Below, in pieces: positions 2,807-22,089 of a stretch of 42,751 bases of DNA. The notes under the pieces were generated by a model. That model saw only the letters and a program-made list of their open reading frames with translations. It had not been told where the DNA came from and did no database searches. The stretch is from assembly GCA_017695095.1 (NCBI GenBank), contig JADILW010000003.1, positions 1 to 42,751 on the forward strand, read 5' to 3'. This stretch comes from Candidatus Cryptobacteroides avistercoris. Lineage in GTDB: Bacteria > Bacteroidota > Bacteroidia > Bacteroidales > UBA932. Numbering within the stretch: position 1 is the stretch's first letter; every line of letters begins with the position of its first letter. Made by a program: the position numbers and the translations under genes.

Positions 2807-4426
2807 ATGACAGAATTCAAGTATGAGCCCATGTTTCAGCTTGGCGAGGACAAGACTGAATACTACAAGGTTCCCGGCTCGGAACAGTATGTGAGCACTT
2901 CGGAGTTCGAGGGCCACAAGATTCTCAAGGTCTCTCCCGAGGCCCTGACGCTGATGTCCAACACGGCCTTCCGCGACGTGAGCTTCATGCTTCGCCGCTC
3001 CCACAACGAGCAGGTTGCGAAGATTCTCCGCGACCCCGAGGCTTCGGCCAACGACAAGTACGTGGCGCTGACCTTCCTGCGCAATGCCGAGATCGCCTGC
3101 AAGGGCAAGCTGCCTTTCTGCCAGGACACCGGCACAGCCATCGTCCACGGAGAGAAGGGCCAGCAGGTGTGGACCGGTTTCTGCGATGAGGAGGCGCTGA
3201 GCCTCGGAGTCTACAAGACCTACACCGAGGAGAACCTCAGATATTCACAGAACGCCCCTCTGGATATGTACAACGAGGTCAACACCAAGTGCAACCTGCC
3301 CGCCCAGATCGACATCGAAGCCTGCGAGGGCGACGAATACCGCTTCCTCTGCGTGACCAAGGGCGGCGGCTCCGCCAACAAGACCTACCTCTATCAGGAG
3401 ACCAAGGCCATACTCAATCCCGGCACCCTCGTGCCCTTCCTCGTGTCCAAGATGAAGACTCTCGGCACGGCGGCCTGCCCTCCCTACCACATTGCCTTCG
3501 TGATAGGCGGAACCTCCGCCGAGAAGAACCTGCTCACCGTGAAGCTCGCCTCCACCCACTACTACGACGAGCTCCCCACCACCGGCGACGAGTGCGGACG
3601 CGCCTTCCGCGACGTGGAGCTTGAGAAGCAGCTGCTCGAGGAGGCATGGAAGATCGGCCTCGGTGCCCAGTTCGGCGGCAAGTATTTCGCCCACGACGTG
3701 CGCGTGATACGTCTGCCCCGCCACGGCGCGAGCTGCCCCGTCGGCCTCGGAGTCAGCTGCTCGGCCGACCGCAACATCAAGGCGAAGATCAACGCCGACG
3801 GCGTGTGGATAGAGAAGCTCGACGACAAGCCCTACGAGCTGATTCCCGAGGAGCTGCGCAACGCCGGCGAGGGCGACGCGGTCAAGATCGACCTCGACCA
3901 GCCCATGTCCGAAGTGTGCAAGCTGCTCAGCAAATATCCCGTGAGCACCCGTCTGAGCCTCAGCGGAACCATCATCGTGGCCCGCGACATCGCGCACGCG
4001 AAGCTCAACGAGAGGCTCGACAGGGGAGAGGACCTGCCCCAGTACTTCAAGGACCATCCCGTATATTACGCCGGTCCCGCGAAGACTCCCGCCGGCTATG
4101 CCTGTGGCTCCATGGGCCCGACCACCGCGAACCGCATGGACCCCTATGTGGACCGTTTCCAGGACCACGGCGGCTCCATGGTGATGATAGCGAAGGGCAA
4201 CCGCACCCAGGTGGTGACCGACGCCTGCAAGAAGCACGGAGGATTCTACCTCGGCTCCATCGGAGGCCCCGCCGCCGTCCTCGCCCAGAACAACATCAAG
4301 TCCATCGAGTGCGTGGAATATCCCGAGCTCGGAATGGAGGCCATCTGGAAGATCAGGGTCGAGGATTTCCCCGCCTTCATCCTCGTAGACGACAAGGGCA
4401 ATGACTTCTTCAAGACCATTGCCTGA
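2807..4426 (+). CDS. Fumarate hydratase, class I (Fe-S)
   Basis: [55 protein letters not shown]; full-length class I fumarase pattern. Confidence 0.93.
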
Positions 4427-4994
4427 CAAAAGGCGGATTCGCAGAATGATGAAGTCTCTCGAAGCGGAATTTCTCGCTTCGGGAGACTTGTTTTCTCTCC
4501 ACGGTCCCGTTGAGGAGACGGTCAGGATAATGTCGGAGCTGGAGCGGCTGGAGCAGTTCCGTAACGCTTCGTGCATGCTCGCCTACATGTCCATGCCGGG
4601 CGAGGTGCAGACTCCGGACTATGTGGCCAGGTGGCGCGCCGCCGGGAAGCGGGTCGTGCTTCCCAGGGTGGTCGGAGAGACTCTCGAGTTGCGGGAATAT
4701 GATCCTGCGGCGCTGGTGTCCGGCTATCGCGGAATCCCCGAACCGTCGGAAGCCGCCCCGCTGGTGAGGCCGTCGGAAGTCGGGCTCGCCGTGGTGCCCG
4801 GAGTCGCCTTCTCCTTCCAGAAGGGCCCCGACGGGGTGGAGAGGTTCTATCGTCTCGGCCGAGGAGGCGGTTTCTACGACAGGCTTCTTCCCATGCTCGA
4901 CTGCCCGTTGGTGGGAGTATGCTACCCCTTCCGCTTCGTGGACAGCCTGCCCCTCGACGAGTGGGACATGCCGCTCGACCTGGTGGTAAGGTAG
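4401..4994 (+). CDS. 5-formyltetrahydrofolate cyclo-ligase
   Basis: [10 protein letters not shown]-like and [13 protein letters not shown] motifs; overlaps fumarase 3' end unless a downstream ATG (4446/4449) is used. Confidence 0.9.
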
Positions 4995-5029
4995 GCTGTG
5001 AGAACTTTGCCGTATCTCATTATTGCCGG

Positions 5030-5824
5030 TTATTGCTGTAATTTATCTATCAATAAAGAACGAACAAGTTCATAACCTGATTGAGGGTTGAATTCTCTGT
5101 CAGGGCGAATCAGATTTTGCGTATCACCCAGGAAATCCGGATCTGACATCTTCCCCTCCATATTGTTGATGAATTGCTTGTATGTTGGCGGCTGTTGTAC
5201 TGTAAAGGACATATAACGTTTGTAGCAGCGAAGTATTTCATCAATATTTACGGTGGCTTCAGTCAGTGCGATATATAAATCAAAAAGGTCTCTTCCTTTT
5301 TTTCGTTGATATAAAGCCCTGAGTTTTGTTCCCAGAAGTTCATTCAGACAATATGTCGTTATCTCGCATTTGCCGGAAAACCAGCTGTTTTCCATCTCAA
5401 ACGGTATTTTAACCAATCCGAGTTCGTTGAAATGTTCAAAACAATTTATCTCGATTTTCAATCGCATCGGAATGGTAGGAGGAATCTCGGACTCCATGCG
5501 AAACAACATTGTATTATTATATCGTTTTTGTTTGGTCACTCTGTCCGGTAAGAAATTCAGGACCTCGCCGAGTCTGAACATGATTGGTTTTATAGGTCCC
5601 GGTGTGATTTGCACCAAATCAATATCTTCACTGTACCTGGGCTGTGGTGACAAGTATAGCTTATGAAGTGCCGTACCTCCCCTGAAAGCCAACTGTGAGG
5701 CAAGGAATTCATCGCTGAAAATGGCGACCAGCGCACGGGAAATGATAAGGTCTTGTTCCACTTGCGCATTGTTATTCCACGGGACAATTTTATTCCATTG
5801 GGTAATAGCTGTTCTGTTTACCAT
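5030..5824 (-). CDS. AbiEii-like nucleotidyltransferase (type IV TA toxin)
   Basis: FRGGTALHKLYLSPQPRYSEDIDLVQ motif; downstream of and overlapping an AbiEi-like gene. Confidence 0.88.
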   Translation of the reverse strand: MVNRTAITQWNKIVPWNNNAQVEQDLIISRALVAIFSDEFLASQLAFRGGTALHKLYLSPQPRYSEDIDLVQITPGPIKPIMFRLGEVLNFLPDRVTKQKRYNNTMLFRMESEIPPTIPMRLKIEINCFEHFNELGLVKIPFEMENSWFSGKCEITTYCLNELLGTKLRALYQRKKGRDLFDLYIALTEATVNIDEILRCYKRYMSFTVQQPPTYKQFINNMEGKMSDPDFLGDTQNLIRPDREFNPQSGYELVRSLLIDKLQQ

Positions 5825-6624
5825 AGTTCGTCTGGTTCTATTATCGAATTTATATTAACTTTCCAACGAGTGTTCTTTTCTGCGGCTTTTTCTGCCCGAT
5901 GGGTACTTAACGGGACGTATCTGAAACGCCTGGTATATGACAGCAATTCCGTATAGAGCATGTCCGCCACCGTTTTCTGTTCAAGTATCTCCTCAAGTAT
6001 GTACCCCAAACGTTGTATGGTGGCAACTGATGTATAGCAGAACAATTTTTGGGAGGCGCCCCTGAAATCCATCTTATCGGCCAGTTCCTCCAAAATGGTA
6101 GCGGCTCTTGAGAAGCCGCCGATATGCTGTTCGTACTGCACGATATCAATGGAGGTCAATTCCACATTTGAATAGTGGATCACTCCGGTTTCAGAGTTCT
6201 TCGACAGCAAAAGGTCCGATGGTATCTCTTTCCGGTATGTCCATACGAGTGTGTCGTTTTTTGATGGTGATGTGGACGGCTTTGGATATTTTGTCGTCAC
6301 TGAAAACTTTTGCGGGCGCTGGTGCGCAGCACCCAGGATTTCAGCAGCGCTCAACAGACTTATATAGTACGGCTTTTTCAGATATGACATCAATTGGTCT
6401 ATATAGTAGACAGGAGGAATAACCCTTTTGGCGGCATATTGGGGAGGGATAATAATATAAAATCCCCTATAGGCAGAATATAGAATACCTTGAGACGATA
6501 ATCGGAAAAGCTCATTCCTTATGACCTGTTCCGAATAATTGGGAAATGTCCGCCTTATTTCTTCAACGGAAAAAGTCGGGAAGCCACTTATTTCTCTATG
6601 CCGAATCCATCCTCTGATTGTCAT
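5818..6624 (-). CDS. AbiEi-like antitoxin/transcriptional regulator
   Basis: N-terminal HTH-like region, Y-x-GFYIIIPPQYA and YISLLSAAEILGAAHQRPQ typical of AbiEi; 7-nt overlap with the AbiEii gene. Confidence 0.8.
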   Translation of the reverse strand: MTIRGWIRHREISGFPTFSVEEIRRTFPNYSEQVIRNELFRLSSQGILYSAYRGFYIIIPPQYAAKRVIPPVYYIDQLMSYLKKPYYISLLSAAEILGAAHQRPQKFSVTTKYPKPSTSPSKNDTLVWTYRKEIPSDLLLSKNSETGVIHYSNVELTSIDIVQYEQHIGGFSRAATILEELADKMDFRGASQKLFCYTSVATIQRLGYILEEILEQKTVADMLYTELLSYTRRFRYVPLSTHRAEKAAEKNTRWKVNINSIIEPDELW

Positions 6625-6666
6625 ATCAAACGGTTTTTATGCAAAGGTAATCAAATATAGGTTATT

Positions 6667-6685
6667 TATGCACTATTTTGGCGCA
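6667..6685. promoter_or_regulatory. Putative operator copy (degenerate) between divergent AbiE and PTP operons
   Basis: TATGCACTATTTTGGCGCA; same 19-bp layout as the sites at 6728 and 20966; lies just upstream of a TACCTTTGC -7 box for AbiE on the - strand. Confidence 0.35.
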
Positions 6686-6727
6686 TTCTCGAGCCGAGTT
6701 TTGGAAAAAGTGGATATTCTTTGCGGT

Positions 6728-6763
6728 TATGCCACGATTTGGCATAGGTTATAGTGATATTTG
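6728..6763 (+). promoter_or_regulatory. Bacteroidetes-type promoter with inverted-repeat operator
   Basis: TATGCCA-N5-TGGCATA overlapping TTTGGC, then N12 and GATATTTG; 20 bp before ATG 6783. Confidence 0.5.
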
Positions 6764-6782
6764 CCATATAAAAGATTTTGAT

Positions 6783-7292
6783 ATGGTGGAGATTCACACA
6801 TTGTCGGCCGCTGATTTCAAGCATACGATGAAGAGCAACGACCTGTATGACTGCAATATAGAGCAGCGTACGGATGTCGCTGTCATTTCCATTGCCAACT
6901 CGTCCGAAGACAGCGAACCAGACGATATCTTCGCAAACGGGCCTTCGTCGAGGTGGTTCCGGCAACGGCACAGGAATGTGCTGAATCTCATATTCGACGA
7001 TGTTTCAGCTTCAGGGACTGAACCGCTTGCCGGCTCTTCTGACGGAGACGGCTATGTCATTTTCGATGAGAGAATGGCCTGCGAAATAGCCGCTTTCGTG
7101 GATGCTAACAAGGACGTCGCCGTCTGGATAGTGCATTGCAGCGCCGGAGTGAGCCGCAGCGGTGCTGTGTCCAGGTGGCTGAAAGACAGGCTGGAGTTCA
7201 AATACGGCATCGAGGCGAACAATGTCGACGGCAGGCACGCCGTTCCCAACGCGTATGTGCTGGAGGTGCTGGACAGGGTGCTGTATCTGTAG
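6783..7292 (+). CDS. Protein-tyrosine/dual-specificity phosphatase-like protein
   Basis: WIVHCSAGVSRSGAVSRWL = HCX5R(S) P-loop; start at 6783 follows a promoter-like motif. Confidence 0.7.
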   Translation: MVEIHTLSAADFKHTMKSNDLYDCNIEQRTDVAVISIANSSEDSEPDDIFANGPSSRWFRQRHRNVLNLIFDDVSASGTEPLAGSSDGDGYVIFDERMACEIAAFVDANKDVAVWIVHCSAGVSRSGAVSRWLKDRLEFKYGIEANNVDGRHAVPNAYVLEVLDRVLYL

Positions 7293-7295
7293 ACT

Positions 7296-7973
7296 ATGGG
7301 GCAGATAATAATAAAGGCCAGGGCTCTGGACTGGACCGAAGGCAATGTCGGGCATGTTCATGTTCTGCTGGACGGTGGGACTTGTAAGGTGGACTGGGGA
7401 GACGGGCATACTTCCGGTATGGCGGCAAGGGGCTTGGAATGGGTGACGTCGGACCATGTATATCCGGAGGGCAGCAGGAAGTCCGGGGACAGGTTCTACA
7501 TCGTCATATCTTCCTGCTCCGAGAATATCACCGGCATTCTTGCGAGCAAGGGTGAAATGCAGGTTGAGGACATCGACATCAGCGGATGCCAGTCCCTGAC
7601 CTATTTCCATGCATCATGGCTGATAGACCATTTCGACCTCGGAAAGAATCCGGGAATCAGGAAGATTGAGCTCCAGGGGAAGGCCTGCGCCCTCGCCGAC
7701 TTTTCAAACAGCAGGGAATTGAGGGAGCTGAGTGTCGAATACGGGGATGCAGGCTTTACCAGGCTGGATTTGACCGGTTGTGGCAAACTGGAGACCCTGA
7801 ACTGCCGTTTGAACAATCATCTGACGCGCATAGCCATCAGCAACCGCTCGGCATTGAAGGAAGTTGTCTATGAGTCAACTCCGTTGGTGGGCCGCTGCCT
7901 TGAAGTGCTGGACAGAATTGTCGTCCGTCAGAACGGAGGCACCGTCACGGAAGCTGCCGGCGAACTTGATTGA
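7296..7973 (+). CDS. Hypothetical protein, PKD-like N-terminus and LRR-like C-terminus
   Basis: VDWGDGHTS motif; repeats such as LREL/FTRLDLTGCGKLETLNCRLNNHLTRIAISN; 3-nt gap after the PTP-like gene. Confidence 0.5.
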   Translation: MGQIIIKARALDWTEGNVGHVHVLLDGGTCKVDWGDGHTSGMAARGLEWVTSDHVYPEGSRKSGDRFYIVISSCSENITGILASKGEMQVEDIDISGCQSLTYFHASWLIDHFDLGKNPGIRKIELQGKACALADFSNSRELRELSVEYGDAGFTRLDLTGCGKLETLNCRLNNHLTRIAISNRSALKEVVYESTPLVGRCLEVLDRIVVRQNGGTVTEAAGELD

Positions 7974-7976
7974 AAT

Positions 7977-8567
7977 TCATATTTGCCGGTCAATCTCTAT
8001 ATTGATTTCAGTCTCGAACTTGCGCACATAGAGGAAGTCCGTTATCGCGAACTTTGTATGGTCTAACAGATGATGGAACGGACTTATGAGGTGCAGGTCT
8101 TTCGTGAGCTCCAGGTCGAGACCTTCATTCCAGTTCGGCGGCAGACAGTCCATGCCGGTCAGAGAATCGAAACTGTCACCGGAGTCCCGAGGGAGCGTAA
8201 GCGTGGATATTGTGACCCCGTCTTCATACAAGGGATTCCAGCCGCTGTCGCAGATTGCGTCCCACAGGTCCTGACGGTCGTCACCCTGCAACGGATGCAG
8301 TTCGGGATAGTCGTAGCCGAGAAAACATTTCGCTGTCAGTTCGATGCTGTCTCCGAAGGAATCCTTGTCCTTCATGTCCGCCCATATCCGCTGCGCCCGG
8401 TCGTACATCTCTTTCAAGGCGTTGCGCAGAGCGTCGTTGAATGCGATGATGTCCGGGAGAATCTCTTCCTGACGGGCGAGAACATGGCTGTTGATCAGGG
8501 TTTTTCTCAAATCGAGAAGAGCACGGCAGTGCGTATATAAGCTCGGATTCCGATCATCGTAAGTCAT
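7977..8567 (-). CDS. Hypothetical protein
   Basis: Open frame convergent with the preceding gene; acidic soluble-like composition; start MTYDDRN preferred over 8657 but uncertain. Confidence 0.5.
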   Translation of the reverse strand: MTYDDRNPSLYTHCRALLDLRKTLINSHVLARQEEILPDIIAFNDALRNALKEMYDRAQRIWADMKDKDSFGDSIELTAKCFLGYDYPELHPLQGDDRQDLWDAICDSGWNPLYEDGVTISTLTLPRDSGDSFDSLTGMDCLPPNWNEGLDLELTKDLHLISPFHHLLDHTKFAITDFLYVRKFETEINIEIDRQI

Positions 8568-8705
8568 GATAATCTGCCGCTCTACGAGAGCCAGGTCTGG
8601 ATTGGAGAGTATCGTAAGCATATCTGAAGTGTTTTGTTGCAAAATAAGCAGAAGCATCTGCCAAAAGAGGACACAAGTTCTACAGAAATATAACTTGAGT
8701 CATGT

Positions 8706-8731
8706 TTTGGCGCATGTCTATGGTATTTTTG
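8706..8731 (+). promoter_or_regulatory. Promoter-like motif TTTGGC-N12-TATTTTTG
   Basis: TTTGGC 8706-8711 and TATTTTTG 8724-8731, same spacing as sites at 6738, 16759, 19371, 20975. Confidence 0.45.
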
Positions 8732-9033
8732 CAGATAGAAAAAGAAAAGCAACAGCCCAGGTTGGACTTTTTTGAAGAAATGAAAAATAATCATATCTTT
8801 AAAAGAATTTTGACGAAAACGAACGTGTTGGTCAGTTCTCGGATACGAATCTGGAACATTCAAAGAAGAGAGAACAGGCGGACATCTTCTCACGTCATAT
8901 CACTTGTGGTATGTGCGTGGGGCTGTTGCTTGTTTCATCTTCAAGGTTTTCCAGAACCTGTATCCTGAAATCGGCAGTGGCGCCACGCTTTCGTTTTGTG
9001 ATAAATGGCATTAAGACTAAATAAACGATAATT

Positions 9034-9342
9034 ATGGCAACAATTTCTATGATTGAACATCGTAGTGCCTGGTATGACATTTATGATGAGAGTGGCAAGA
9101 AGCAGAAGACCCTAAGTGACAGCATTGGAGAGGTATTAGGGTGGAGTTCGTCGTTCTTTATAGTACACAGACATTCCTGGTATGACCTGTATGATGCTTC
9201 CGGGAAAAAGTACAAGACAATGAGCGATTCAATCGGCTCGTTTGTCAGCATCTCCGGAGGTACATTCATCATGCGCCGGAGCGCCTGGCTGGACACATAC
9301 GATAACTCCGGGAGAAAAGTCAATACAAGGACAGCACGTTAA
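9034..9342 (+). CDS. Small tandem-repeat protein (three units of 36 aa)
   Basis: HRSAWYDIYDESGKKQKTLSDSIG / HRHSWYDLYDASGKKYKTMSDSIG / RRSAWLDTYDNSGRKVNT; Trp residues at 13, 49, 85. Confidence 0.7.
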   Translation: MATISMIEHRSAWYDIYDESGKKQKTLSDSIGEVLGWSSSFFIVHRHSWYDLYDASGKKYKTMSDSIGSFVSISGGTFIMRRSAWLDTYDNSGRKVNTRTAR

Positions 9343-9354
9343 ACAATTTGTGAT

Positions 9355-11232
9355 ATGGAACCAATACTATCTATAAGTGAAATATTCAATTCTTATCTGA
9401 AGGACGACGAATATATGGTAATCCCGTCATACCAAAGAGGCTATGAATGGGATGCAGACGATATCAGAATATTGCTTGACGACATCGCCAAATTTGCGAC
9501 AGCTGGCTTGGATAACGATAAATTCTATTGTCTGCAACACATCACCTTGATTAAGAAGAATGATAAAGACGGGCACACATTTTATAATATCGTAGACGGC
9601 CAGCAGCGTATTACCACATTGGCTATAATACTCTCATTCTACGGGAAAGGCCAAATGTTCGGGGACAAACTGCGATATGAGGTCCGGACTGAAACAGGAA
9701 AATTTCTGAAAGACTATATTTTCACACGGAAATACTGGAGAGGAAATTATTCTGAAAAGCCACGGCATAAAGACGAATATTATATTATGCAGGCTGCAGA
9801 TATAGTCAGGAAATGGGAATCAGAAACTCCAAAACAAAAGGACTTTGCTCTTGAAGATTTCATTGATGCTTTACTCGCCAAAGTCAAGATAATCGTCAAT
9901 GATGTAAGCGGCAATGAAGAAACTGTCTTCGCAAACATCAATGGCGTGAAAGCTGAACTTGACGGAGCCGACCTGTTGCGTGCAGTACAGATTACAAGGT
10001 CGGCAGAAGAAAAATATGAGACCTCAGATTCCGATACCCATAAAGAAAATAAAGAAAATAAAGAAAATAAAGTAAATGAGTACCGGGTAAAAATGGGAAT
10101 GGAACTCGATTCTATCAATTTATGGTGCAATTTTCCGGAAGTCCGCAAATATCTTGAACTTTTTCTTCCTGAGAATGCTTTTGAGAAATCGGGCTTTTTT
10201 GTCAAAGATCATCCGATAGATTACCTGTACAGGATGATGTATGAGATTCATTCAGACAAGACTGCGAAGTTTGAATTTCGCTTCTTTGAGTACGGACTTA
10301 ACAAAAACAGCAAGAATAATGATGACAACTGGGAAATGTATGAAGAACTGAAAAATATTTACAGTTCTTTATACGACTGGTATGGCGACAATGAAATATA
10401 CCATTATACCGCCTATTTGTTTTCCCAGCATAAACAGAGTTTAAATTTTAAGACCATTTATGAAAAATGGGATAATCTTGGCTCTAAACAGGAATTTGCC
10501 AGATATCTTAAAAACATGATTGTTGAGATGTTGCTTCGCAGGTTCAATGACGAAGACAACGGTTCTGGCAATTCACAAAGTGATGCTCATGTTCAAGAAT
10601 ACAAGACTGATCTTTTAAAGGAGATTTCTGATATACAACATAACTGGTATGGAGATCCTATGTCAAGCACAATACTGATATTGTCTGATGTTATTCTCTG
10701 CACACGCAAAAATTCGCTGAACAGGTTGCCGATTGACCGTTTCAGACGCAATTCAGAAGACATAGAACACATCGGATGCAGGACTCCTAATGAGGAAGAT
10801 TGTGCAGATACCATCAAATGGAGAGCATATATAGAGGAAATCGAGAAAAGCGGGATCGACATAGAGAAAGATACCATAAAACGATGGAAAGCAAGTCTTG
10901 AGAGTAGTTCTGATACACAAAAACAGATTGATAAAATCGTATCGGAACTGAATGCATACGGTTTGAATTCATTAGGCAACCTTGTCCTGCTTGACCAAAG
11001 TGTAAACCGCAGCTATCGTAATGCTTCATTTCACAAAAAGAAAATGATAATTCTTTCACATTATTTTGGGAACACAGAAGAAATCAAGGGAAAGAGTGAG
11101 AAAAATATAAAACCAATCCGCCCGTACACATTGAAAGTATTTTCATCAGAAGAAGATAACAAGTGGACACTTGAGGACATAAAAAGAACAGCGGAAGCTC
11201 TTTCCGGTACAATTAAAAAATTTATAGCATAA
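9355..11232 (+). CDS. DUF262 protein with C-terminal DUF1524-like (HNH) region, GmrSD-like
   Basis: IPSYQRGYEWD, IVDGQQRITTLAIIL; C-terminal EDIEHIGCRTP and LGNLVLLDQSVNRSYRNASFHKKK. Confidence 0.85.
   Translation: MEPILSISEIFNSYLKDDEYMVIPSYQRGYEWDADDIRILLDDIAKFATAGLDNDKFYCLQHITLIKKNDKDGHTFYNIVDGQQRITTLAIILSFYGKGQMFGDKLRYEVRTETGKFLKDYIFTRKYWRGNYSEKPRHKDEYYIMQAADIVRKWESETPKQKDFALEDFIDALLAKVKIIVNDVSGNEETVFANINGVKAELDGADLLRAVQITRSAEEKYETSDSDTHKENKENKENKVNEYRVKMGMELDSINLWCNFPEVRKYLELFLPENAFEKSGFFVKDHPIDYLYRMMYEIHSDKTAKFEFRFFEYGLNKNSKNNDDNWEMYEELKNIYSSLYDWYGDNEIYHYTAYLFSQHKQSLNFKTIYEKWDNLGSKQEFARYLKNMIVEMLLRRFNDEDNGSGNSQSDAHVQEYKTDLLKEISDIQHNWYGDPMSSTILILSDVILCTRKNSLNRLPIDRFRRNSEDIEHIGCRTPNEEDCADTIKWRAYIEEIEKSGIDIEKDTIKRWKASLESSSDTQKQIDKIVSELNAYGLNSLGNLVLLDQSVNRSYRNASFHKKKMIILSHYFGNTEEIKGKSEKNIKPIRPYTLKVFSSEEDNKWTLEDIKRTAEALSGTIKKFIA
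10042..10077 (+). repeat. In-frame 9-bp minisatellite (AAAGAAAAT)x3 plus one degenerate copy
   Basis: Encodes KENKENKENKVN inside the first DUF262 protein. Confidence 0.9.
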
Positions 11233-11238
11233 TTTGCC

Positions 11239-13461
11239 ATGGAACAGAAACATTTATCAGAACTACTTGAAAAGAATATAGTCGTACCAGAAATCCAGAG
11301 AGAATATGTCTGGGGGTCCCGAAAGGAAATATTCGTTCAGTTTATTGATACTTTAAAGGATGCAGAAGCCGGGAATATCAAATTAGGATTCCTCTATTCA
11401 TATTCAAGGAACGGAGAAGAATATATTATTGACGGCCAGCAACGCTTTACCACTCTCGTGCTGCTGCTATATTATCTGTCACTTAAAAATCCGAAGAATA
11501 CCGAAGATTTTAGACGGAGATTGAAGACAGATTCTGCCAATATGGCCTTTACATACCGAGTAAGGACTAATACAGAGCAGTTTATGAAAGATCTTTTTGC
11601 GAGCGGGGTCTGCTCACGGGAAGAGATACTGGACAGCCCATGGTATCACCAATATTATGATAATGATTTGACTATCAGGTCAATGATTAATTTTCTCGAT
11701 TGTCTGAAGTCCACAGGGCTGGAATATGACTACGATAATTTGCTCAATGTGTCGTTCTGGTATTATCCTGTGGACAAGACCTCGATGGGGGAAGAACTGT
11801 ATATAACGATGAACAGCAGAGGAAAGGCTTTGGACAGTGCAGAACACCTGAAACCTCTGCTTATGAAAAACGAACCGGACAAAGACAGGAACTGGGGTAG
11901 AATATGGGATAACTGGGAAGAATTCTTCTTCGGGATACTAGGCAAGAGGGAGATCAGTTGCATAAATGTGGCAATGAATAATTTCATTAGGCTTGTTTGG
12001 GAATTGGAAACCTGCGGAGAGCATGATGTACTTGACCCGACAGCGGCAAAAGAAGATATTGAACTTGGCAAAATTAATCTTAAGGAGATCTGGCATTATT
12101 TCACTGCCCTGGAGGCTTTGTATAATTCTGAGTTCAAGATAGAAATCAACAGGCTTTTCGGTGATGAAGTAAATGGGGTAAAAGATGCCAATATGTTGAT
12201 TCTTAAATCTTTGTTATGCGCATGCAGATTCCATACGTTTGACAAATATGAACATAGAAGAGTATATGAACGGGTATACAATGCGTTCCAACGGAGACGG
12301 ATATTGAATCATATACCTCTTCTAAAGCTTCTGAAAAAATATCGGGAATGTTATGGCGGAAAGACTTTTTATGAAATTATATTGGAGAACTGCGGCAAAA
12401 ATTGGAACGACAAAGATTATCCGACACCTCCTTTTGACGAAAAAGAATGCAAACTGGTACAACTCATTCAGGATTCAATCAATAGAGATGATGATGAAAT
12501 ATCAATCAGTGGAATTCTTCCTTTGCTTGGTATTCTTGGCAAAATTAAATATTCTGACATTGAAGAGGAATTCTGGAGGGTGTGCAGACGCGATATAGGA
12601 AGTCATAAGATATGGAATGGAGACTTGTCAATACTAATCGGATGGAGTTGCGATGAAACAGGCAAGTTCGATTTGTCTAAATTCAGACATTACGCAGATT
12701 TAATTGATGCACTGTTTCCTGGGAAAGACAGTACCGGACATGAAATTGATCTGTTCCGAAGAGTTGTAATCGTCGGAATCCCGAATTACCAGCCGGTCAG
12801 TAGAGGTGGGTACAAAACTTTCGGGTGGGAATGGCAGGACTGGAGGAAACTAATCGATAATAATCCTGATGCTTTTAAGGAATTCATTGATGAAATAGGT
12901 GATGGAAGTCCAGAATCTATGAGCAGCTATATTCAAACACATTGTACTACGGTTAATAAGTATACTGATTTTGCCGTTGATAATTATCTGCTTGATTTTA
13001 CGCATAATTCATGCTCTTGTGATATCAGAGATGATGAAAAAAGAAATGATTATAATATCTATGTCAAGGGCGGAATTTTAAGACATACCAGATGTATACT
13101 GCGCTATAATGCTTTAATCCTGAAGGAATTCGGAGGAGATTACAAGGCAGATAAAAGAAATGACAGACATTTGATAGGTATCGGGGAGTGGGGCGTCTGG
13201 TATTGGGCTGATAAATGGTATAACTGTGTCGTTATGGACAATGTACAATATAAGATAGACATACGATATGACAATAAGGAAAAATCATGCAGTCTGACAG
13301 TAAAATGCAGCAATAATGAACCTTGCGACTTAACCCTGCAGGGATTTGAATGGAGAGAAAAGGAGTATACTAAAGTAATCAGACAGACCGAGTTCAATCC
13401 GAAAGAAATCAAGCGGAAGGTCATTGAAACCATTAACGAAATCGATATGCAAAAAAAATAA
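11239..13461 (+). CDS. DUF262 protein, second of pair; long uncharacterised C-terminus
   Basis: VPEIQREYVWG, IIDGQQRFTTLVLLLYYL, MNSRGKALDSAEHLKPLLM; no HNH motif recognised by eye. Confidence 0.83.
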   Translation: MEQKHLSELLEKNIVVPEIQREYVWGSRKEIFVQFIDTLKDAEAGNIKLGFLYSYSRNGEEYIIDGQQRFTTLVLLLYYLSLKNPKNTEDFRRRLKTDSANMAFTYRVRTNTEQFMKDLFASGVCSREEILDSPWYHQYYDNDLTIRSMINFLDCLKSTGLEYDYDNLLNVSFWYYPVDKTSMGEELYITMNSRGKALDSAEHLKPLLMKNEPDKDRNWGRIWDNWEEFFFGILGKREISCINVAMNNFIRLVWELETCGEHDVLDPTAAKEDIELGKINLKEIWHYFTALEALYNSEFKIEINRLFGDEVNGVKDANMLILKSLLCACRFHTFDKYEHRRVYERVYNAFQRRRILNHIPLLKLLKKYRECYGGKTFYEIILENCGKNWNDKDYPTPPFDEKECKLVQLIQDSINRDDDEISISGILPLLGILGKIKYSDIEEEFWRVCRRDIGSHKIWNGDLSILIGWSCDETGKFDLSKFRHYADLIDALFPGKDSTGHEIDLFRRVVIVGIPNYQPVSRGGYKTFGWEWQDWRKLIDNNPDAFKEFIDEIGDGSPESMSSYIQTHCTTVNKYTDFAVDNYLLDFTHNSCSCDIRDDEKRNDYNIYVKGGILRHTRCILRYNALILKEFGGDYKADKRNDRHLIGIGEWGVWYWADKWYNCVVMDNVQYKIDIRYDNKEKSCSLTVKCSNNEPCDLTLQGFEWREKEYTKVIRQTEFNPKEIKRKVIETINEIDMQKK

Positions 13462-13484
13462 ACTGCACTTTGCCTGTCAATCCA

Positions 13485-13526
13485 GCCCCACTTGCGTCGC
13501 TTTTTGGCGCAGGTGGGCTTTTATTT
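13485..13526 (+). terminator. Rho-independent terminator downstream of the DUF262 pair
   Basis: CCCACTTGCG ... CGCAGGTGGG stem followed by CTTTTATTTT. Confidence 0.75.
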
Positions 13527-13558
13527 TGTGTCTGTAAAAATGAATAAACTTATAAATT

Positions 13559-15121
13559 ATGGCATTTGCTCATCTTCATGTCCACACTACTTACTCCATC
13601 TGTGAGGGAGTTGCCAGAATCGGAGAACTGTTCCGACGGGCAAAGGAATTGGGACAACTAGGACTGGCTATTACGGATCATGAAGTACTGTCTGGAGTTC
13701 CGACATTCCTGTCCGTGGCAAAAGAATATCCGAGTATTAAACCTGTTATCGGATGCGAGATATATTTGACCGACCACTATGACCATAAAATCAAGGATTA
13801 CGGGCATCGCAGGCGTTTTCATCTGACGCTGCTGGCTAAGAATCTGACTGGCTATAGGAATTTAGTCAAAATCGTAACAATAAGCCATCTTGAGGGAAAT
13901 TTCCTTGGCAAGCCGAGAGTTAGCCATGAAGTCCTCGCCACGCATCACGATGGGCTGATAGCCTTGTCCGGCTGTTTTGCCGGAGAGATACCTCGGGCGA
14001 TATTGAACGATGACATGGATAAGGCGGAGGCTGCCATAAGATGGTACCAGGAGGTTTTCGGAGACGATTTCTACTTAGAAGTCATGGCGCACAACTGGTC
14101 GAAACCCGGCAAAGGCCACAATCTCAGAGAGAGACAGGACAAGGTCAATGCTGCAATCTTCGGTCTTGCCGAAAAGTATAACGTAGATGTTGTCGCGACT
14201 AACGATGTGCATTTCGTCATGAAAGAGGACGCGGCCTTGCAGGATGCCGTCTTGGCGGAATATCTGTTTGAAGGAGAACAGTACAGTCCGTTATGTACAG
14301 GAGAGGAGTATCTGAAATCCGAACAGGAAATGCTCGCACTTTTCCCTGAACATCCGGAAGTGGTCAGCAATACGATGAAGGTGCTGGACAAGGTGGAGCG
14401 TTACAGTATAGAGTGTCCTCCTGAGGTGCCGGATTATCCAGTTCCTGAAGGGTGTTCGCAGGATGAATTTCTTCGGCGGCTCTGTGAGGACGCTTTGGAA
14501 CAGAAAGGGTGCAGCGACACAGCACATAGTGGCCGGCTTGAAAACGAACTCAAGATGGCAACAGAATCCGGATTTGCCAATCTGTTCCTGATTCTCAGGG
14601 ATCTTGTATGGACTTGCAAGGGAAACGGAAAGATTCTGATTCCCGGAAGTAGAGATATGGTAAGTTCGCTTATAAATTATCTTCTGGGGATTGTGGAGTC
14701 TGATCCCGTTGAATCTAATCTGCCGGAGAGATTCCAAAGTAATCGCGAGTATAGATATCCGGAAATAAGGTTTATGGTCCACAAGGAAAATCTTCAATTT
14801 GTTGTATCATATCTGAGACATAAATATGGCTGGCAACATATGGCAGAGACCATACGCTACATTGGTCCAAGTTGGAATGAAGCTGCTGAAATTGTGGAAA
14901 AATTCAATTTGCCGCTTGACCGGCAGTATGATTTGTTCAAGACTCGTTATTCGGTTCAAGAACGAAAGGGAAGTATCCTTCTTGGGAAAAAGCCGATGTC
15001 GGAATATGTTCCGTTGTCATCGTTCGGTTCAGACAATGACATGGTCAGTCAATACTCTTGTTCCAATCTCTTGGATATCTCAATAGGGCCTGTCCTTATT
15101 GATTTTGTTCCAATTGATTGA
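13559..15121 (+). CDS. DnaE-derived protein: PHP domain plus shortened, degenerate Pol III alpha palm
   Basis: HLHVHTTYS, ITDHEVLSGV, GCEIYL, RFHLTLLAKN, LSGCFAGEI, ATNDVHFV (PHP); palm-like GFANLFLILRDLVW...IPGSRDMVSSLINYLL...LPERF...YPEIRFMV and EYVPL...VSQY...LIDF. Confidence 0.8.
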   Translation: MAFAHLHVHTTYSICEGVARIGELFRRAKELGQLGLAITDHEVLSGVPTFLSVAKEYPSIKPVIGCEIYLTDHYDHKIKDYGHRRRFHLTLLAKNLTGYRNLVKIVTISHLEGNFLGKPRVSHEVLATHHDGLIALSGCFAGEIPRAILNDDMDKAEAAIRWYQEVFGDDFYLEVMAHNWSKPGKGHNLRERQDKVNAAIFGLAEKYNVDVVATNDVHFVMKEDAALQDAVLAEYLFEGEQYSPLCTGEEYLKSEQEMLALFPEHPEVVSNTMKVLDKVERYSIECPPEVPDYPVPEGCSQDEFLRRLCEDALEQKGCSDTAHSGRLENELKMATESGFANLFLILRDLVWTCKGNGKILIPGSRDMVSSLINYLLGIVESDPVESNLPERFQSNREYRYPEIRFMVHKENLQFVVSYLRHKYGWQHMAETIRYIGPSWNEAAEIVEKFNLPLDRQYDLFKTRYSVQERKGSILLGKKPMSEYVPLSSFGSDNDMVSQYSCSNLLDISIGPVLIDFVPID

Positions 15122-15127
15122 TTTAGA

Positions 15128-15219: not shown

Positions 15220-16494
15220 TCAGTCCTTTAGACACCCGATGGGAACTACATAAACTCCGTCTGCTCGACGATAGGCGAATTTCCCTGTTGCCGTCAGTAT
15301 CATAAGGAAGGACGGGGCTTTCATCTTGTCCGTATCGATCTTTGCCGCCAATGTTTTCAGTGTAGCTGCGCCTTGCTCTATAAGCTGGTCTCCTCCGAGT
15401 TTTATCTCGACAAGCCCGAATCTGCCGTTGCGCAGGTGGACGACGGCGTCACATTCGAGGCCGTTCTTGTCCCGAAAATGATAAACTTGTCCATCCAGAG
15501 CACCTGCGAATACGCGTAAATCCCGGATGCAAAGTGTCTCAAACAACAACCCCATTGTATTCAGGTCATGAATCAGGTCCTTGGGGCCAAGGCCCAAAGC
15601 GGCGACAGCTATTGACGGATCGACAAAGTATCTGGTGTCAGATGTCCGGATAGCTGTTTTTGAACGCAAATTGGGATTCCACGCAAGAGAATCTTCTATG
15701 ACAAAAATCTTTTTCAGGGCGTCGATGTAGGAGGTGACTGTCTTTGCATCCGTCGATTCTTCATCATTCACCCGCATATCTTCTACGATTGTGCTGATGG
15801 GGACCTGTGAACCCTGATGCCGAGCATACGATCGCATCAAGCGGTTTGCCCGTTCTCGATTGCGTCGAACGCCGTCTACGCGAGATATGTCCGAACGTGT
15901 CACAGCGTCATAATAGTATTTCACCTGGTCCAGGGCAATATCCCCGGTTTGTAAGGATGCACGAGGCCATCCTCCCCGGCAAATTAAAAAGGCAATATCA
16001 TCAAGCGACAATTTATTCATTCCCATGATGTTGTCGGGAGTCTCAAACATGTCCTCCAAACTCACTTCTCCAGAAGATTCTCCAGACTCGTATAAACTCA
16101 TGGGTCGCATTGTCAGCCATGCAAACCGGCCGGCTCCGGAATGATGGATTTCTTCTGTCTTTGCGGGAATAGCGGATCCCGTCAAGATAAAAAGACCGTC
16201 GCCTTCTCTATGGTCAACTTCAAAACGGATTGTATCCCACAATTTGGGAGCGAGTTGCCATTCATCCACCAATATGGGGGATTCCCCCACCAACAGCACT
16301 TTGGGGTTTATATCGGCCATACGGAGATTCTGTTCTTTGTACAAAGGGTCGTCCATGTAGATGATTGTGGATGCCTGTTGCTCCGCAGTCGTGGTCTTGC
16401 CACACCATTTAGGCCCTTCAATCAAAACGGCTCCGATGCCAGCAAGCTTTCGTTGCAGCTCCTTATCCGCAATTCTCGGTTTATATGTCTTCAT
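15220..16494 (-). CDS. AAA_14/DUF4143 ATP-binding protein
   Basis: LIEGPKWCGKTTTAEQQ (Walker A), ILVDEWQLAPKLWDTIR, ILTGSA, C-terminal GLECDAVVHLRNGRFGLVEIKLG; start set below a TATCTTTGCC -7 box. Confidence 0.9.
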   Translation of the reverse strand: MKTYKPRIADKELQRKLAGIGAVLIEGPKWCGKTTTAEQQASTIIYMDDPLYKEQNLRMADINPKVLLVGESPILVDEWQLAPKLWDTIRFEVDHREGDGLFILTGSAIPAKTEEIHHSGAGRFAWLTMRPMSLYESGESSGEVSLEDMFETPDNIMGMNKLSLDDIAFLICRGGWPRASLQTGDIALDQVKYYYDAVTRSDISRVDGVRRNRERANRLMRSYARHQGSQVPISTIVEDMRVNDEESTDAKTVTSYIDALKKIFVIEDSLAWNPNLRSKTAIRTSDTRYFVDPSIAVAALGLGPKDLIHDLNTMGLLFETLCIRDLRVFAGALDGQVYHFRDKNGLECDAVVHLRNGRFGLVEIKLGGDQLIEQGAATLKTLAAKIDTDKMKAPSFLMILTATGKFAYRRADGVYVVPIGCLKD

Positions 16495-16555
16495 GGCATG
16501 GTACTGATTATGAGGCAAAGATAGCGATATTTCTTGAAATTCCCGGCTTTGGCCA

Positions 16556-16784: not shown

Positions 16785-16819
16785 CCTTCGTGAAGGAGAC
16801 AGGCGGACATATTGTCAAG

Positions 16820-17653
16820 ATGAGGGATGTGAAGTTTGATCCGTCCCTCTTTCAGAATTACCGGACAGGCACAGTTCTGGACGAACTTCTGTGCAGCTAC
16901 TGCGGATTGCCAAAAGGTGTCAATTATATGGTTATAGGTGATCCCGGAGTCGGCAAGACGACAATAATAATGGATATGCTCTCCGACATAAGGATGCTTT
17001 CCACGACTGCGCGCGTACTTTTCATAAGCGCCGAAATGAATGAGATAGACCTGGCCGTCTATGTGCAGAGATTCCCTAAGTTCCAGGATCTTGAGATACT
17101 TTTCATCAAGGCCGATTTCAGTTCGGAAAGTGGAGGTGCCCATTGTCTGAAGCTGTTGACGGATATCTTCAGCAGCGGGTGGGACGTGGTGGCGATAGAC
17201 TCTTTTTATGAACTACAGGGAATAATCAAGGAAGAGGAGAACATCACCTTGAAAAAGGCTGAGAGCCTGTTGCTGTCTTTGCTCAAGGAGCAGAATGAAG
17301 GCCATAATGATACAAGCGCGAACACGACATTCCTGATAATCCAGCAGGTGACCAAAAGCGGAAACTTCATAGGCTCCAACAGGCTCAAGCACTATATCAC
17401 CGCCATGATGGAACTGCGGCTTGAGAATCCGAAGAATGTGTATTCATCGCGATATGTGGTCTTTACCAAACACAGGAGGGGAACGGTCGGAATCAAGCTT
17501 TACTATGACCTTGGGGTGGAGGGTGACGTGTTCTATGATGAAAAGCGCTTCCTGCAGGACCAGCAGATACGGAGCCTCCAGTCAAAAGCCTCGGACAGCA
17601 TCAGGGACGTGGCCGACAGATTTGACAGACTCTTCAGCAACATTGAATTATAG
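16820..17653 (+). CDS. RecA-fold ATPase, RadA/KaiC/DnaB-like
   Basis: YMVIGDPGVGKTTIIMDML (Walker A), LFISAEMNEIDLAVYVQRF, WDVVAIDSFYEL (Walker B); start 16820 chosen because ATG 16790 is too close to the -7 box. Confidence 0.8.
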   Translation: MRDVKFDPSLFQNYRTGTVLDELLCSYCGLPKGVNYMVIGDPGVGKTTIIMDMLSDIRMLSTTARVLFISAEMNEIDLAVYVQRFPKFQDLEILFIKADFSSESGGAHCLKLLTDIFSSGWDVVAIDSFYELQGIIKEEENITLKKAESLLLSLLKEQNEGHNDTSANTTFLIIQQVTKSGNFIGSNRLKHYITAMMELRLENPKNVYSSRYVVFTKHRRGTVGIKLYYDLGVEGDVFYDEKRFLQDQQIRSLQSKASDSIRDVADRFDRLFSNIEL

Positions 17654-17657
17654 TAAT

Positions 17658-18716
17658 ATGGATTTCAGTACATTGAAAAATCAGGTGCTGTCCGACAGGA
17701 ATCCCTACAGGACAGTGGGTCGTGAGCAGATTGAGCACATTGGCGGCAGTTTCTACAAGGTGGACGGAGTGGAAATGGAAGTCACGCCAGAGGTGGCGTC
17801 AGATCTTGATGCTTTCATAGGCCTGAGCAGGAAACAGGCAAAAACGGTCGAAACCGCATCCGGTGAAACGGGTATCAGGAATTTCAGGAACTATCTGGCT
17901 TCAGCCAGTTCCATCTCCAGGCCTATGCGGCTCGCAATAGTCGGTGACAGAGATACAAGGCAGATTACGAAGGCTGTTCCACTGAAGGAAGAACTGATAA
18001 CGGCGGAAGCATTTTTCGATTTCGCCGAGATGTTCATGGACAGGAATGGCTATTCGTCTCGCTCGTGCATGATAGGCGTTGATACGGGTGCTGAATTCTC
18101 CATAATCCTCGACAGCTGGCATCCCGAAATCTCGGCGATCCGGAATGACGACGAAGGCTTTCTGACCAATTCCATATACCTGAAATGGAATCCGGGAGGA
18201 ATCGAACTGGGGCATTACTATGAAAGACTGATTTGCTCCAACGGTCAGGTGACGCGGGTGCATTCACGCGATGCCACGATAAATTCGCTTGCGACGGAGC
18301 AGGTGAACAGGATGCTGGCATTGCCGGATTCGAATATCATGAAAAAGGGTTTCCATGAATTCAGCAATGCGGCCCTGCTGGCAATGGACACCAGAGCTTC
18401 CATGCAGGAATTGAAATATGTGTCCGCTTTACTGGAAAAATTCGGACTGGAGGCGGATGAGGCGGAGAAGATTGCGCCATATCGGAAGGAAGTACAGGAG
18501 TATGCAACAAGGGGCTATGATATCGACAGGAACAATGCCGCAACCGCATTGGCCAGCATGACGGTTTGGAATCTGTACAATTCCCTCACGGCTTTCGCCT
18601 CGCACAATGATATGTGGCCTGAAGCTGATGGCCGCCGCATGGAACTTGGAGGGGCGGCGGTGAGATTTCTTTATCGCGAGCGGGATATAAAGAATTATAC
18701 CGATATCTTTGCATAA
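17658..18716 (+). CDS. Hypothetical protein, possibly DUF932-like
   Basis: Downstream of the RecA-fold ATPase by 4 nt; C-terminal ALASMTVWNLYNSLTAFASHND; family assignment tentative. Confidence 0.55.
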   Translation: MDFSTLKNQVLSDRNPYRTVGREQIEHIGGSFYKVDGVEMEVTPEVASDLDAFIGLSRKQAKTVETASGETGIRNFRNYLASASSISRPMRLAIVGDRDTRQITKAVPLKEELITAEAFFDFAEMFMDRNGYSSRSCMIGVDTGAEFSIILDSWHPEISAIRNDDEGFLTNSIYLKWNPGGIELGHYYERLICSNGQVTRVHSRDATINSLATEQVNRMLALPDSNIMKKGFHEFSNAALLAMDTRASMQELKYVSALLEKFGLEADEAEKIAPYRKEVQEYATRGYDIDRNNAATALASMTVWNLYNSLTAFASHNDMWPEADGRRMELGGAAVRFLYRERDIKNYTDIFA

Positions 18717-18741
18717 AGAGACGAAGCCTCGCGTACCATAT

Positions 18742-19242
18742 ATGAAAAATTTTGCGGCGATAGATTTCGAGACGGCTAACGGATGCCGCTCCAGCGTGTG
18801 CAGCGTCGGAGTCGTCATTGTAAAGGACAACAAGATAGAGGACAGGTTCTACAGCCTTATCCATCCGGTTCCTGACTATTATTCGTATTGGAACACGCAG
18901 ATCCACGGACTGACGGCGGAATCGACAATGACGGCACCGGCCTTCCCCGAGGTATGGGAAAGGGCCAGCGCTCTCATAGGGGACCTGCCGCTCGTCGCCC
19001 ACAACAGCCCTTTCGACGAGGGCTGTCTGAAAGCTGTTTTCGGGGTATACGGAATGACTTATCCGGACTATAAATTTTACTGCACCTGCAGGGCGTCGAG
19101 GGCGGTTCTGGGCAAGAGGCTTCCAAATCATCAGCTGCAGACCGTCGCACAATATTGCGGCTATGACCTGCGGCAGCATCACCACGCACTGGCCGATGCC
19201 GAAGCCTGCGCAAGGATTGCGATTGAAATCCTGGATTTTTGA
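18742..19242 (+). CDS. DEDDh 3'-5' exonuclease, DnaQ-like
   Basis: AAIDFETANGCRSSVCSVGVV, QIHGLTAES, LVAHNSPFDEG, HHHALADAEACARIA (Exo I-III). Confidence 0.92.
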   Translation: MKNFAAIDFETANGCRSSVCSVGVVIVKDNKIEDRFYSLIHPVPDYYSYWNTQIHGLTAESTMTAPAFPEVWERASALIGDLPLVAHNSPFDEGCLKAVFGVYGMTYPDYKFYCTCRASRAVLGKRLPNHQLQTVAQYCGYDLRQHHHALADAEACARIAIEILDF

Positions 19243-19421: not shown

Positions 19422-19883
19422 ATGGGAACGGTCATAAACCTGAAGTGGAAGCACATCGGCCCGTGTCCGGACCAGTGGTTTGCGTACTTCTATAATGAAT
19501 GGGAAGACAGGACATACGAAGTCTATATCAGGGAAGACACTTACTGGTGGTCAGCGGCTCTGTCTTCTGTGGAAGGACAACATACTGCAGAAGAGTTTGA
19601 AAGAATCCCGAGCGAGCAGCAAGTTTATGAGAACATCCCTCTTGCTTTCTACTATGACACCGATGTCGACAACAGGCCTAAAATGGAGGAGGAAGTACTC
19701 CTATTTCTGCTGCATCGCTTCCCGCATCTCTCGTTTGATTCAAAAATCAGGGAGCAATATGACTTTACGGCAGGTCTGGAAGACATGGACGACGGCAGCC
19801 GCGCCGAACTGTTGGAACGGCGTGCCGAACTGATGCGGAGATATTTGGAGAAATACGAGGAATTCAAAAAATCAAATCGATAG
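19422..19883 (+). CDS. Hypothetical protein (153 aa)
   Basis: Continuous ORF after a promoter-like site; acidic, Trp/Tyr-rich N-terminus. Confidence 0.6.
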   Translation: MGTVINLKWKHIGPCPDQWFAYFYNEWEDRTYEVYIREDTYWWSAALSSVEGQHTAEEFERIPSEQQVYENIPLAFYYDTDVDNRPKMEEEVLLFLLHRFPHLSFDSKIREQYDFTAGLEDMDDGSRAELLERRAELMRRYLEKYEEFKKSNR

Positions 19884-20965: not shown

Positions 20966-21000
20966 ATGCCGCTTTTTGGCACAAGATGTTCGTATCTTTG
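20966..21000 (+). promoter_or_regulatory. Promoter with inverted-repeat operator upstream of the WYL gene
   Basis: TATGCC-N7-GGCACA overlapping TTTGGC, N12, TATCTTTG. Confidence 0.5.
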
Positions 21001-21020
21001 CGGAAACAACATCTGGCAGT

Positions 21021-21947
21021 ATGGCAAAAGACAAATTCTCCAGGTATATATGGTTGGTGGACACCATATACCGCGCAAACGGCATCACGTTCGAGGAAAT
21101 CAACGAAAAGTGGCTCCGGAACAGCATGAGCGACGGGCTGGACCTGCCGCTGAAAACTTTCCACAACCACAGGAATGCCATCGAGGAGATATTCGACATC
21201 AACATCGTCTGCGACAGGCGAAACGGGTATCGCTACTACATCGAAAACGCCGACGACATGAAGAAAGGCGGAGTCAGGACCTGGCTTCTGAACACCTTCG
21301 CCGTGAACAATCTCATCAACGAGAGTCACCACCTGAAGCGGCGCATACTCTTCGAGCAGATTCCGTCCGGCCAGAAGCACCTCACCACCATAATAGAGGC
21401 GATGCGGGACTCCCGCACCCTGGAGATGACCTACAAGAGCTTCTGGCGACAGGACAGCTACACCGCCGAAGTGGAGCCCTATTTCGTCAAGGTATTCAGG
21501 CAGAGATGGTACATGGTTGCGAAGAATACGGAGAAAGACGCATTGAGAATATACGCTCTCGACAGGGTGCAGGAAATGAGGGAGACCGACAACGGCTTCG
21601 CCTTTCCCAAGGACTTCGACCCCGAGGAATACTTCTACAACAGCTTCGGAATCATCCACGACGACAACTGTCCTCCGGAAATCGTGGACTTGAAAGTCTA
21701 TGGTACGCAGAGGGAGTACTTCAGGACCCTGCCGCTGCACCACTCCCAGAAAGAGGTAGAAACGGAAAACGAGTACTCCGTGTTCCGCTACTATCTTTCT
21801 CCGACCTACGATTTCGTCCAGGAAATACTGTCACACGGATGCGAAGTGGAGGTGTTGTCGCCGGAGCATCTCAGGAATGAAATCCGCTGGCACGCTGAAG
21901 TCATTGTAAAAAGAACCAGTGGAGGGGAACCGGACAAAGCAAATTGA
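21021..21947 (+). CDS. WYL-domain transcriptional regulator
   Basis: HTH-like N-terminus (FSRYIWLVDTIYRANGITFEEINEKW), LEMTYKSFW, VEPYFVKVFRQRWYMVAKN. Confidence 0.88.
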   Translation: MAKDKFSRYIWLVDTIYRANGITFEEINEKWLRNSMSDGLDLPLKTFHNHRNAIEEIFDINIVCDRRNGYRYYIENADDMKKGGVRTWLLNTFAVNNLINESHHLKRRILFEQIPSGQKHLTTIIEAMRDSRTLEMTYKSFWRQDSYTAEVEPYFVKVFRQRWYMVAKNTEKDALRIYALDRVQEMRETDNGFAFPKDFDPEEYFYNSFGIIHDDNCPPEIVDLKVYGTQREYFRTLPLHHSQKEVETENEYSVFRYYLSPTYDFVQEILSHGCEVEVLSPEHLRNEIRWHAEVIVKRTSGGEPDKAN

Positions 21948-22000: not shown

Positions 22001-22081
22001 GCGGGTGTGTTGTAATTGGTAGCCAAGCCAGACTTAGGATCTGGTGCCTCGCGCGTATGGGTTCGAGTCCCTTCACCCGCA
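22001..22081 (+). tRNA. tRNA-Leu(TAG)
   Basis: GCGGGTG/CACCCGC acceptor, CCAGACTTAGGATCTGG anticodon arm, long variable arm, GGTTCGAGTCC T-loop; TATATTTGCC promoter box upstream. Confidence 0.95.
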
Positions 22082-22089
22082 CTGAATTT

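Follow-up and report, generated by a model that had tools for sequence, protein, structure and literature searches.

A truncated DnaE paralogue with a predicted PHP nuclease domain and a reduced polymerase palm in a defence-type island of Candidatus Cryptobacteroides

ImuB, a dead accessory polymerase of the Y family, works with the RecA-like ImuA and has no PHP nuclease domain. In family X, noncanonical PolX proteins have lost DNA synthesis and kept an active PHP exonuclease (PMC9226535). A survey of 3,070 genomes from 2026 reported that, PolX aside, conservation is generally lower at the proofreading exonuclease site than at the polymerase site, and that every C-family group includes inactivated PHP sites (PMC12926913). 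An earlier survey discarded fragments without an intact polymerase site (PMC3919608).

Here we describe a short DnaE-derived protein encoded in a 42,751-nucleotide stretch of DNA (the window) from Candidatus Cryptobacteroides avistercoris, a member of a gut lineage of Bacteroidales. It resembles ImuB in being a polymerase homologue kept after the loss of synthesis, and differs from it in polymerase family and in carrying a PHP domain. With noncanonical PolX and PolX-like proteins (PMC9226535, PMC12926913) it shares a substituted catalytic triad, palm deletions and a PHP domain that is more constrained than the palm. However, noncanonical PolX belongs to family X, has a demonstrated exonuclease and is linked to end-joining genes, whereas the short form belongs to family C and is linked to GmrSD. 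PolX is also defined by a family X palm with a C-terminal PHP domain, whereas in the window protein the PHP domain is N-terminal and the palm is of the C family. The short form may be regarded as a C-family counterpart of noncanonical PolX, as an analogue only.

The open reading frame, its length of 520 aa and every motif quoted in an earlier note on this DNA were found as described. The features of the protein are as follows.

13559-15121, plus strand: DnaE-derived putative pseudo-polymerase, with the PHP domain at residues ~1-230, a linker at 231-300 and a reduced, dead palm at 301-520
13559-14248, plus strand: PHP domain (alignment of 26 DnaEs and four short forms; dN/dS)
14459-15118, plus strand: reduced palm without equivalents of E. 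coli Asp401 and Asp403, ending after the strand of the third Asp (alignment, AlphaFold, dN/dS)

Pfam detected PHP (E 2.8e-49) and, at residues 304-437, DNA_pol3_alpha (E 3.4e-18), and the NCBIfam DnaE models matched residues 1-434 strongly, yet below the model cut-offs. The host assembly (G000; 1.64 Mb, 93% complete) holds an intact full-length DnaE elsewhere, so the 520-aa protein is an extra copy, a paralogue of the host DnaE. The chromosomal DnaE1 (Pol III alpha) of Cryptobacteroides is its direct relative, with a PHP region that is ~50-56% identical and a recognisable palm. In a tree of the PHP region the short proteins formed one clade (100/100) that grouped with the Cryptobacteroides DnaE (100/100) and not with the DnaEs of the other genera of the family, so that by descent the short form is an old duplicate of the Cryptobacteroides DnaE. 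Compared to DnaE1 the short form has no catalytic Asp pair or GPGRGS, a deletion in the palm, no HhH, OB or CTD, and no insertion after residue 300, which the aligned Cryptobacteroides DnaEs do have.

To find orthologues, we used the last 124 residues of the window protein to search 400 Cryptobacteroides genomes. We found intact copies in four further genomes (G709, G645, G715 and G776) and a remnant in G728. The copy in G709, which is the congeneric 'Candidatus Cryptobacteroides excrementipullorum', is 520 aa long and 95% identical to the window protein (94% over the C-terminal 124 residues). The G645, G715 and G776 copies are 739 aa long, with open frames, and ~60% identical to the window protein over 522 aa. 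This longer form runs on through the DnaE fingers, which are recognisable (Pfam finger domain, E 1.3e-27) and dead, and ends soon after. G645 and G715 encode the same protein, which leaves four distinct intact sequences, in two groups and one genus. None of them has a stop or frameshift, and each genome bearing an orthologue also has its own full-length DnaE. Decayed relatives were present too: G728 retains only 'SEYVPFSSFSSDNDVVSQYSCSNLLDI', adjoining a remnant of a KaiC-like ATPase, G782 has a fingers-only DnaE ORF of 237 aa (L164 1502-2215) that overlaps the start of a KaiC-like ATPase gene, and in G506 an isolated DnaE palm fragment of 174 aa (L162 11114-11638) lies in a related island. 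All the orthologue genomes are draft assemblies and the scans were limited by pattern or sample, so distant members may be missed.

In a scan of genome contigs for the short form the other matches, where read, were mostly ordinary DnaE frames, and with a palm-half query against 393 Bacteroidales genomes the matches listed outside the window were long DnaE or contig-end frames. Viral contigs gave no relative of the short form with a single-protein query and one distant match with an alignment query. By tblastn all phage and plasmid matches were less than 60% identical, and the annotated ones were mostly DNA polymerase III alpha. Within the phage collection PHP matched MT836900 most closely, but this entry looks like a bacterial contig, since its neighbours look bacterial and its DnaE is 52% identical to that of the host. 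The phage profile families PHROG 7513 and 13169 (~460 positions) hit the window protein (E 1e-64 and 1e-24) in its PHP part, with matches that end at residues 297 and 230, short of the palm.

The polymerase site is altered throughout. Aligned with the host DnaE, the window protein has PEIRFMV for PDIDVDF and IPGSRDMVSS for GPGRGSAAGS, so that its PD-I-D motif is P-E402-I-R404 and Asp401 and Asp403 (E. coli numbering) are lost. The first two palm Asps and GPGRGS are absent from all the short proteins aligned, and where the third catalytic Asp would lie the window protein has Asp (D515), G709 has Asn, and G645 and G776 have Cys. About 55-75 palm/thumb residues preceding EYVPL are missing from all four short proteins, a deletion that they share, and the window protein terminates just past the last palm strand, which bears the third Asp position. 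A functional C-family polymerase has three palm Asps and complete fingers, HhH, clamp-binding motif and OB; the window protein has E402 and R404 in place of two of the Asps, and the short proteins end at the palm (520 aa) or past the fingers (739 aa). An AlphaFold model of the window protein, built on an alignment of 30 sequences, had a pLDDT of 85.9 and a pTM of 0.87, with its last strand at residues 512-519. Foldseek matched this model to Pol III alpha structures at E ~1e-42 across PHP and palm; 2hpi from Taq (E 7e-43, TMq 0.83) and 2hnh from E. coli (TMq 0.86) were among the best solved matches, and 4iqj was matched as well. By descent and predicted fold the protein belongs to the C family (DnaE). 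Because the model is confident and matches Pol III alpha, the palm is real, if reduced, and its match is not spurious; the polymerase site is dead. The altered palm without its paired catalytic Asp, and the late EYVPL segment after a shortened stretch at which the protein ends, had both been read correctly in the earlier note.

The PHP metal site is better kept. In an alignment of 26 ordinary DnaEs and the four short forms, the ligands of the window protein are H7, H9, E16, H41, E67, H88, C139, D216 and H218, eight of the nine being exact. At position 16 all 26 ordinary DnaEs compared and every orthologue have Asp, and the window protein has Glu; the ligand string is HHEHEHCDH in the window and HHDHEHCDH, with all nine ligands, in the G709, G645 and G776 orthologues. 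Beside ligand H41 the window protein also has Glu at position 42 (G42E), which is nearly always Gly in the others. The orthologues fit the published signature of active PHP exonucleases, HHDHEH[C/H]DH, and the same criterion, strictly applied, would class the window copy alone as inactive (PMC12926913). In M. tuberculosis DnaE1, Asp23Asn abolishes the exonuclease (PMC5636811), and Asp23 is taken to be the position corresponding to position 16. PHP activity is therefore likely for the orthologues and, given D16E and this precedent, uncertain for the window copy. Hence the PHP domain that was previously called intact-looking is complete, with one ligand replaced, and the expected pattern of PHP ligands kept while the first two palm Asps are lost holds in the orthologues.

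Selection acts on the truncated form. Between the window and G709 copies, both already truncated, dN/dS was 0.22 overall (neutrality p 4e-9), 0.21 in the palm (neutrality p 4e-4) and 0.22 in the PHP domain. Between the window and G645, where synonymous changes are near saturation, it was 0.11 for PHP, 0.06 for the linker and 0.36 for the palm, and for the host DnaEs of G000 and G709 it was 0.12 for PHP and 0.15 for the palm. The PHP domain is constrained about as in a real DnaE, and the palm more loosely, not freely. The truncated form is under purifying selection and, with a dN/dS of ~0.22 after truncation, is therefore not a pseudogene.

Upstream of the PHP gene lies a pair of GmrSD-type genes.

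9355-11232, plus strand: GmrSD (DUF262 with a DUF1524-type HNH), gene 1 of the upstream pair (Pfam, PADLOC)
11239-13461, plus strand: GmrSD_N (DUF262), gene 2 of the upstream pair (Pfam, PADLOC)
13487-13527, plus strand: terminator-like hairpin of 13 pairs with a T-rich tail, between GmrSD gene 2 and the PHP gene

The analysis of gene neighbourhoods proposed in the earlier note showed a GmrSD pair upstream on the same strand in all the intact-copy loci (G000, G709, G645/G715 and G776, four distinct), with an exonuclease-like stretch between the pair and the PHP gene in G776. No GmrSD_N gene outside these pairs was detected in the G000, G715 and G776 genomes. The pairs are ~22-28% identical between groups, and the two window genes are 95% and 87% identical to those of G709. 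In G645 and G776 the GmrSD pairs are ~27% alike (L051 11598-15801, L053 12245-16623) between flanking DNA that is 91-96% identical, so the pairs have been exchanged at this spot, as in cassette exchange. PADLOC matched no model to the 520-aa protein and matched GmrSD-type and AbiE models to its neighbours. The placing of the gene next to defence-type genes is borne out by these neighbours, although the hairpin separates it from GmrSD and weakens the idea of an operon partner; a similar hairpin was read by eye at the same place in G645. Further upstream, an ORF at 6678-7292 has the motif HCSAGVSRSG, similar to protein tyrosine/dual-specificity phosphatase active sites, and a 102-aa ORF at 9034-9342, just upstream of the GmrSD pair, has about three 'SAWYDIYDxSGKKxKTxSDSIG'-like repeats.

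The genes downstream are more variable.

15220-16518, minus strand: AAA_14/DUF4143 ATPase (Pfam), within a ~1.5-kb stretch absent from G709
16790-17653, plus strand: KaiC/RadA/Sak4-like RecA-fold ATPase with Walker A GDPGVGKT (Pfam, profiles, family alignment)
17658-18716, plus strand: DUF932-like partner of the KaiC-like ATPase (weak Pfam similarity, E 0.011; start set by homologues)
18709-19242, plus strand: DEDDh exonuclease, Pol III epsilon-like catalytic domain only (homologues in the G645, G776, G728, G561 and G752 islands)
19422-19883, plus strand: 153-aa protein, 72-73% to the C-terminal part of the truncated DnaB-like protein of G645 and G776
20976-21947, plus strand: WYL/WCX transcriptional regulator, recurrent in these islands

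RecA-fold ATPases, either truncated DnaB-like or KaiC-like, lie downstream of the PHP gene in most of the intact-copy loci. In G645 a DnaB-like gene lies 19 nt downstream of the PHP gene. Its 456-aa product has the C-terminal ATPase domain of DnaB and lacks the N-terminal one, and over residues 31-222 it is 49% identical to the host DnaB. This DnaB-derived protein (L051 7803-9173) has an extra C-terminal region of ~150 aa that stands alone in the window as the 153-aa protein, a probable remnant of a DnaB-like partner. In place of the DnaB-like gene the window has the KaiC-like ATPase and the DUF932-like protein, past the AAA_14/DUF4143 gene. Since its stretch is absent from G709, the AAA_14/DUF4143 gene was probably inserted after the PHP gene, ahead of the neighbour that once followed it. 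In G709 the PHP gene is followed by an unrelated gene of AAA_14 type, and no KaiC-like or DnaB-like gene was found beside this copy; the link to an ATPase is therefore not universal. The DEDDh exonuclease and WYL genes recur across these islands. The KaiC-like/DUF932-like pair (window 16790-18716; L161-L165, L172-L174) is conserved and dispersed over Bacteroidales islands, where WYL regulators and GmrSD genes often accompany it; it also occurs in other Bacteroidales families without DnaE pieces. As this ATPase also occurs without the PHP gene, its candidacy as a dedicated PHP partner is weakened. In G039 (L173) an AAA_14/DUF4143 gene, 68% to that of the window, lies just upstream of the pair.

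The short proteins of G000 and G709 are 95% identical and their host DnaEs 73%, and window 4288-15122 (10.8 kb) is 95.6% identical to G709 as a mosaic of 86-100% blocks. Similarly, the genes of an 18-kb stretch common to G645 and G715 are 100% identical, with DnaEs that are 82% alike. As the short proteins and the 18-kb stretch are far more alike than the host DnaEs, the island, made up of genes for restriction and DNA processing, moves horizontally within the genus and has been exchanged between species. An AbiEii/AbiEi toxin-antitoxin pair at window 5030-6624 has proteins 100% identical to those of G709, with host DnaEs that are 27% different. A tRNA-Leu (tag) at 22001-22082, directly right of the WYL gene and between the island and lysO/housekeeping-type genes, is a possible integration site.

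We consider it moderately probable that the protein is a pseudo-polymerase that serves, in a mobile island of defence type, as a PHP 3'-5' exonuclease or phosphoesterase, maybe with the downstream RecA-fold ATPase. A DnaE duplicate would have lost DNA synthesis and survived for its PHP domain. On DNA ends this domain would probably act as a metal-dependent 3'-5' exonuclease or phosphoesterase, and what is left of the palm would bind DNA or lend structural support. The partner could be the ATPase, DnaB-like beside the 739-aa form and KaiC-like in the window, and the role would be to degrade or process foreign DNA; the nuclease activity, the partnership and the defence role are what we infer. 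Of the two functions suggested earlier, the standalone PHP nuclease/phosphoesterase is the best-supported reading, given the kept ligands, the lost palm Asps, the purifying selection and the reduced palm, with D16E in the window counting against it. The other, a decoy, would be a dominant-negative replisome mimic in which a dead fragment blocks invading replicons by binding their helicase, proofreader or primer ends. The inactive palm and the replisome-like neighbours in G645 and G776 (DnaB C-terminal ATPase, epsilon-like exonuclease) would suit it. However, the DnaE parts carrying the beta-clamp motif, the tandem HhH, the OB and the C-terminal tau-binding region are all absent, which makes a clamp decoy unlikely, and the best-kept feature, the PHP ligand set, is needless for a decoy. 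We hold this reading to be highly improbable.

It is improbable, too, that the gene is a duplicated dnaE in decay, a pseudogene shortened piecewise from its 3' end as a passenger in a plastic defence island. The stepwise shortening from 739 to 520 aa, the D16E and G42E changes of the window copy, the G728 remnant and the isolated fragments in G782 and G506 are what decay would leave, but the four distinct copies have open frames, selection persists after truncation, the PHP ligands are kept across 40% sequence divergence, and in the AlphaFold model the 520-aa form ends at a structural boundary. The same nuclease might instead clean DNA ends outside defence, during repair or recombination and perhaps for the island itself, and the KaiC-like/DUF932-like pair would then be a module for annealing or recombination. 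This alternative is tentative and rather unlikely. It accords with the likeness of the KaiC-like ATPase to RadA, RadB and Sak4, with the tie of noncanonical PolX to break repair (PMC9226535) and with the movement of the locus between species; against it, the nearest gene pair in all the intact-copy loci is GmrSD, a type IV restriction family. An extension of the PHP nuclease reading, in which a DnaB-derived motor would feed the DNA ends of invaders to the PHP pseudo-polymerase and an epsilon-like exonuclease, as a defence machine of replisome parts alongside interchangeable GmrSD pairs, is quite improbable.

Loss of synthesis with the PHP nuclease kept has been documented for family X polymerases, and is known so far from there. 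A C-family case kept by selection, running against the trend that the 2026 survey reported outside PolX (PMC12926913), would mean that even the replicase can be reused as a nuclease, and the short form would offer a small, testable protein for asking what the PHP domain of DnaE does without a polymerase.
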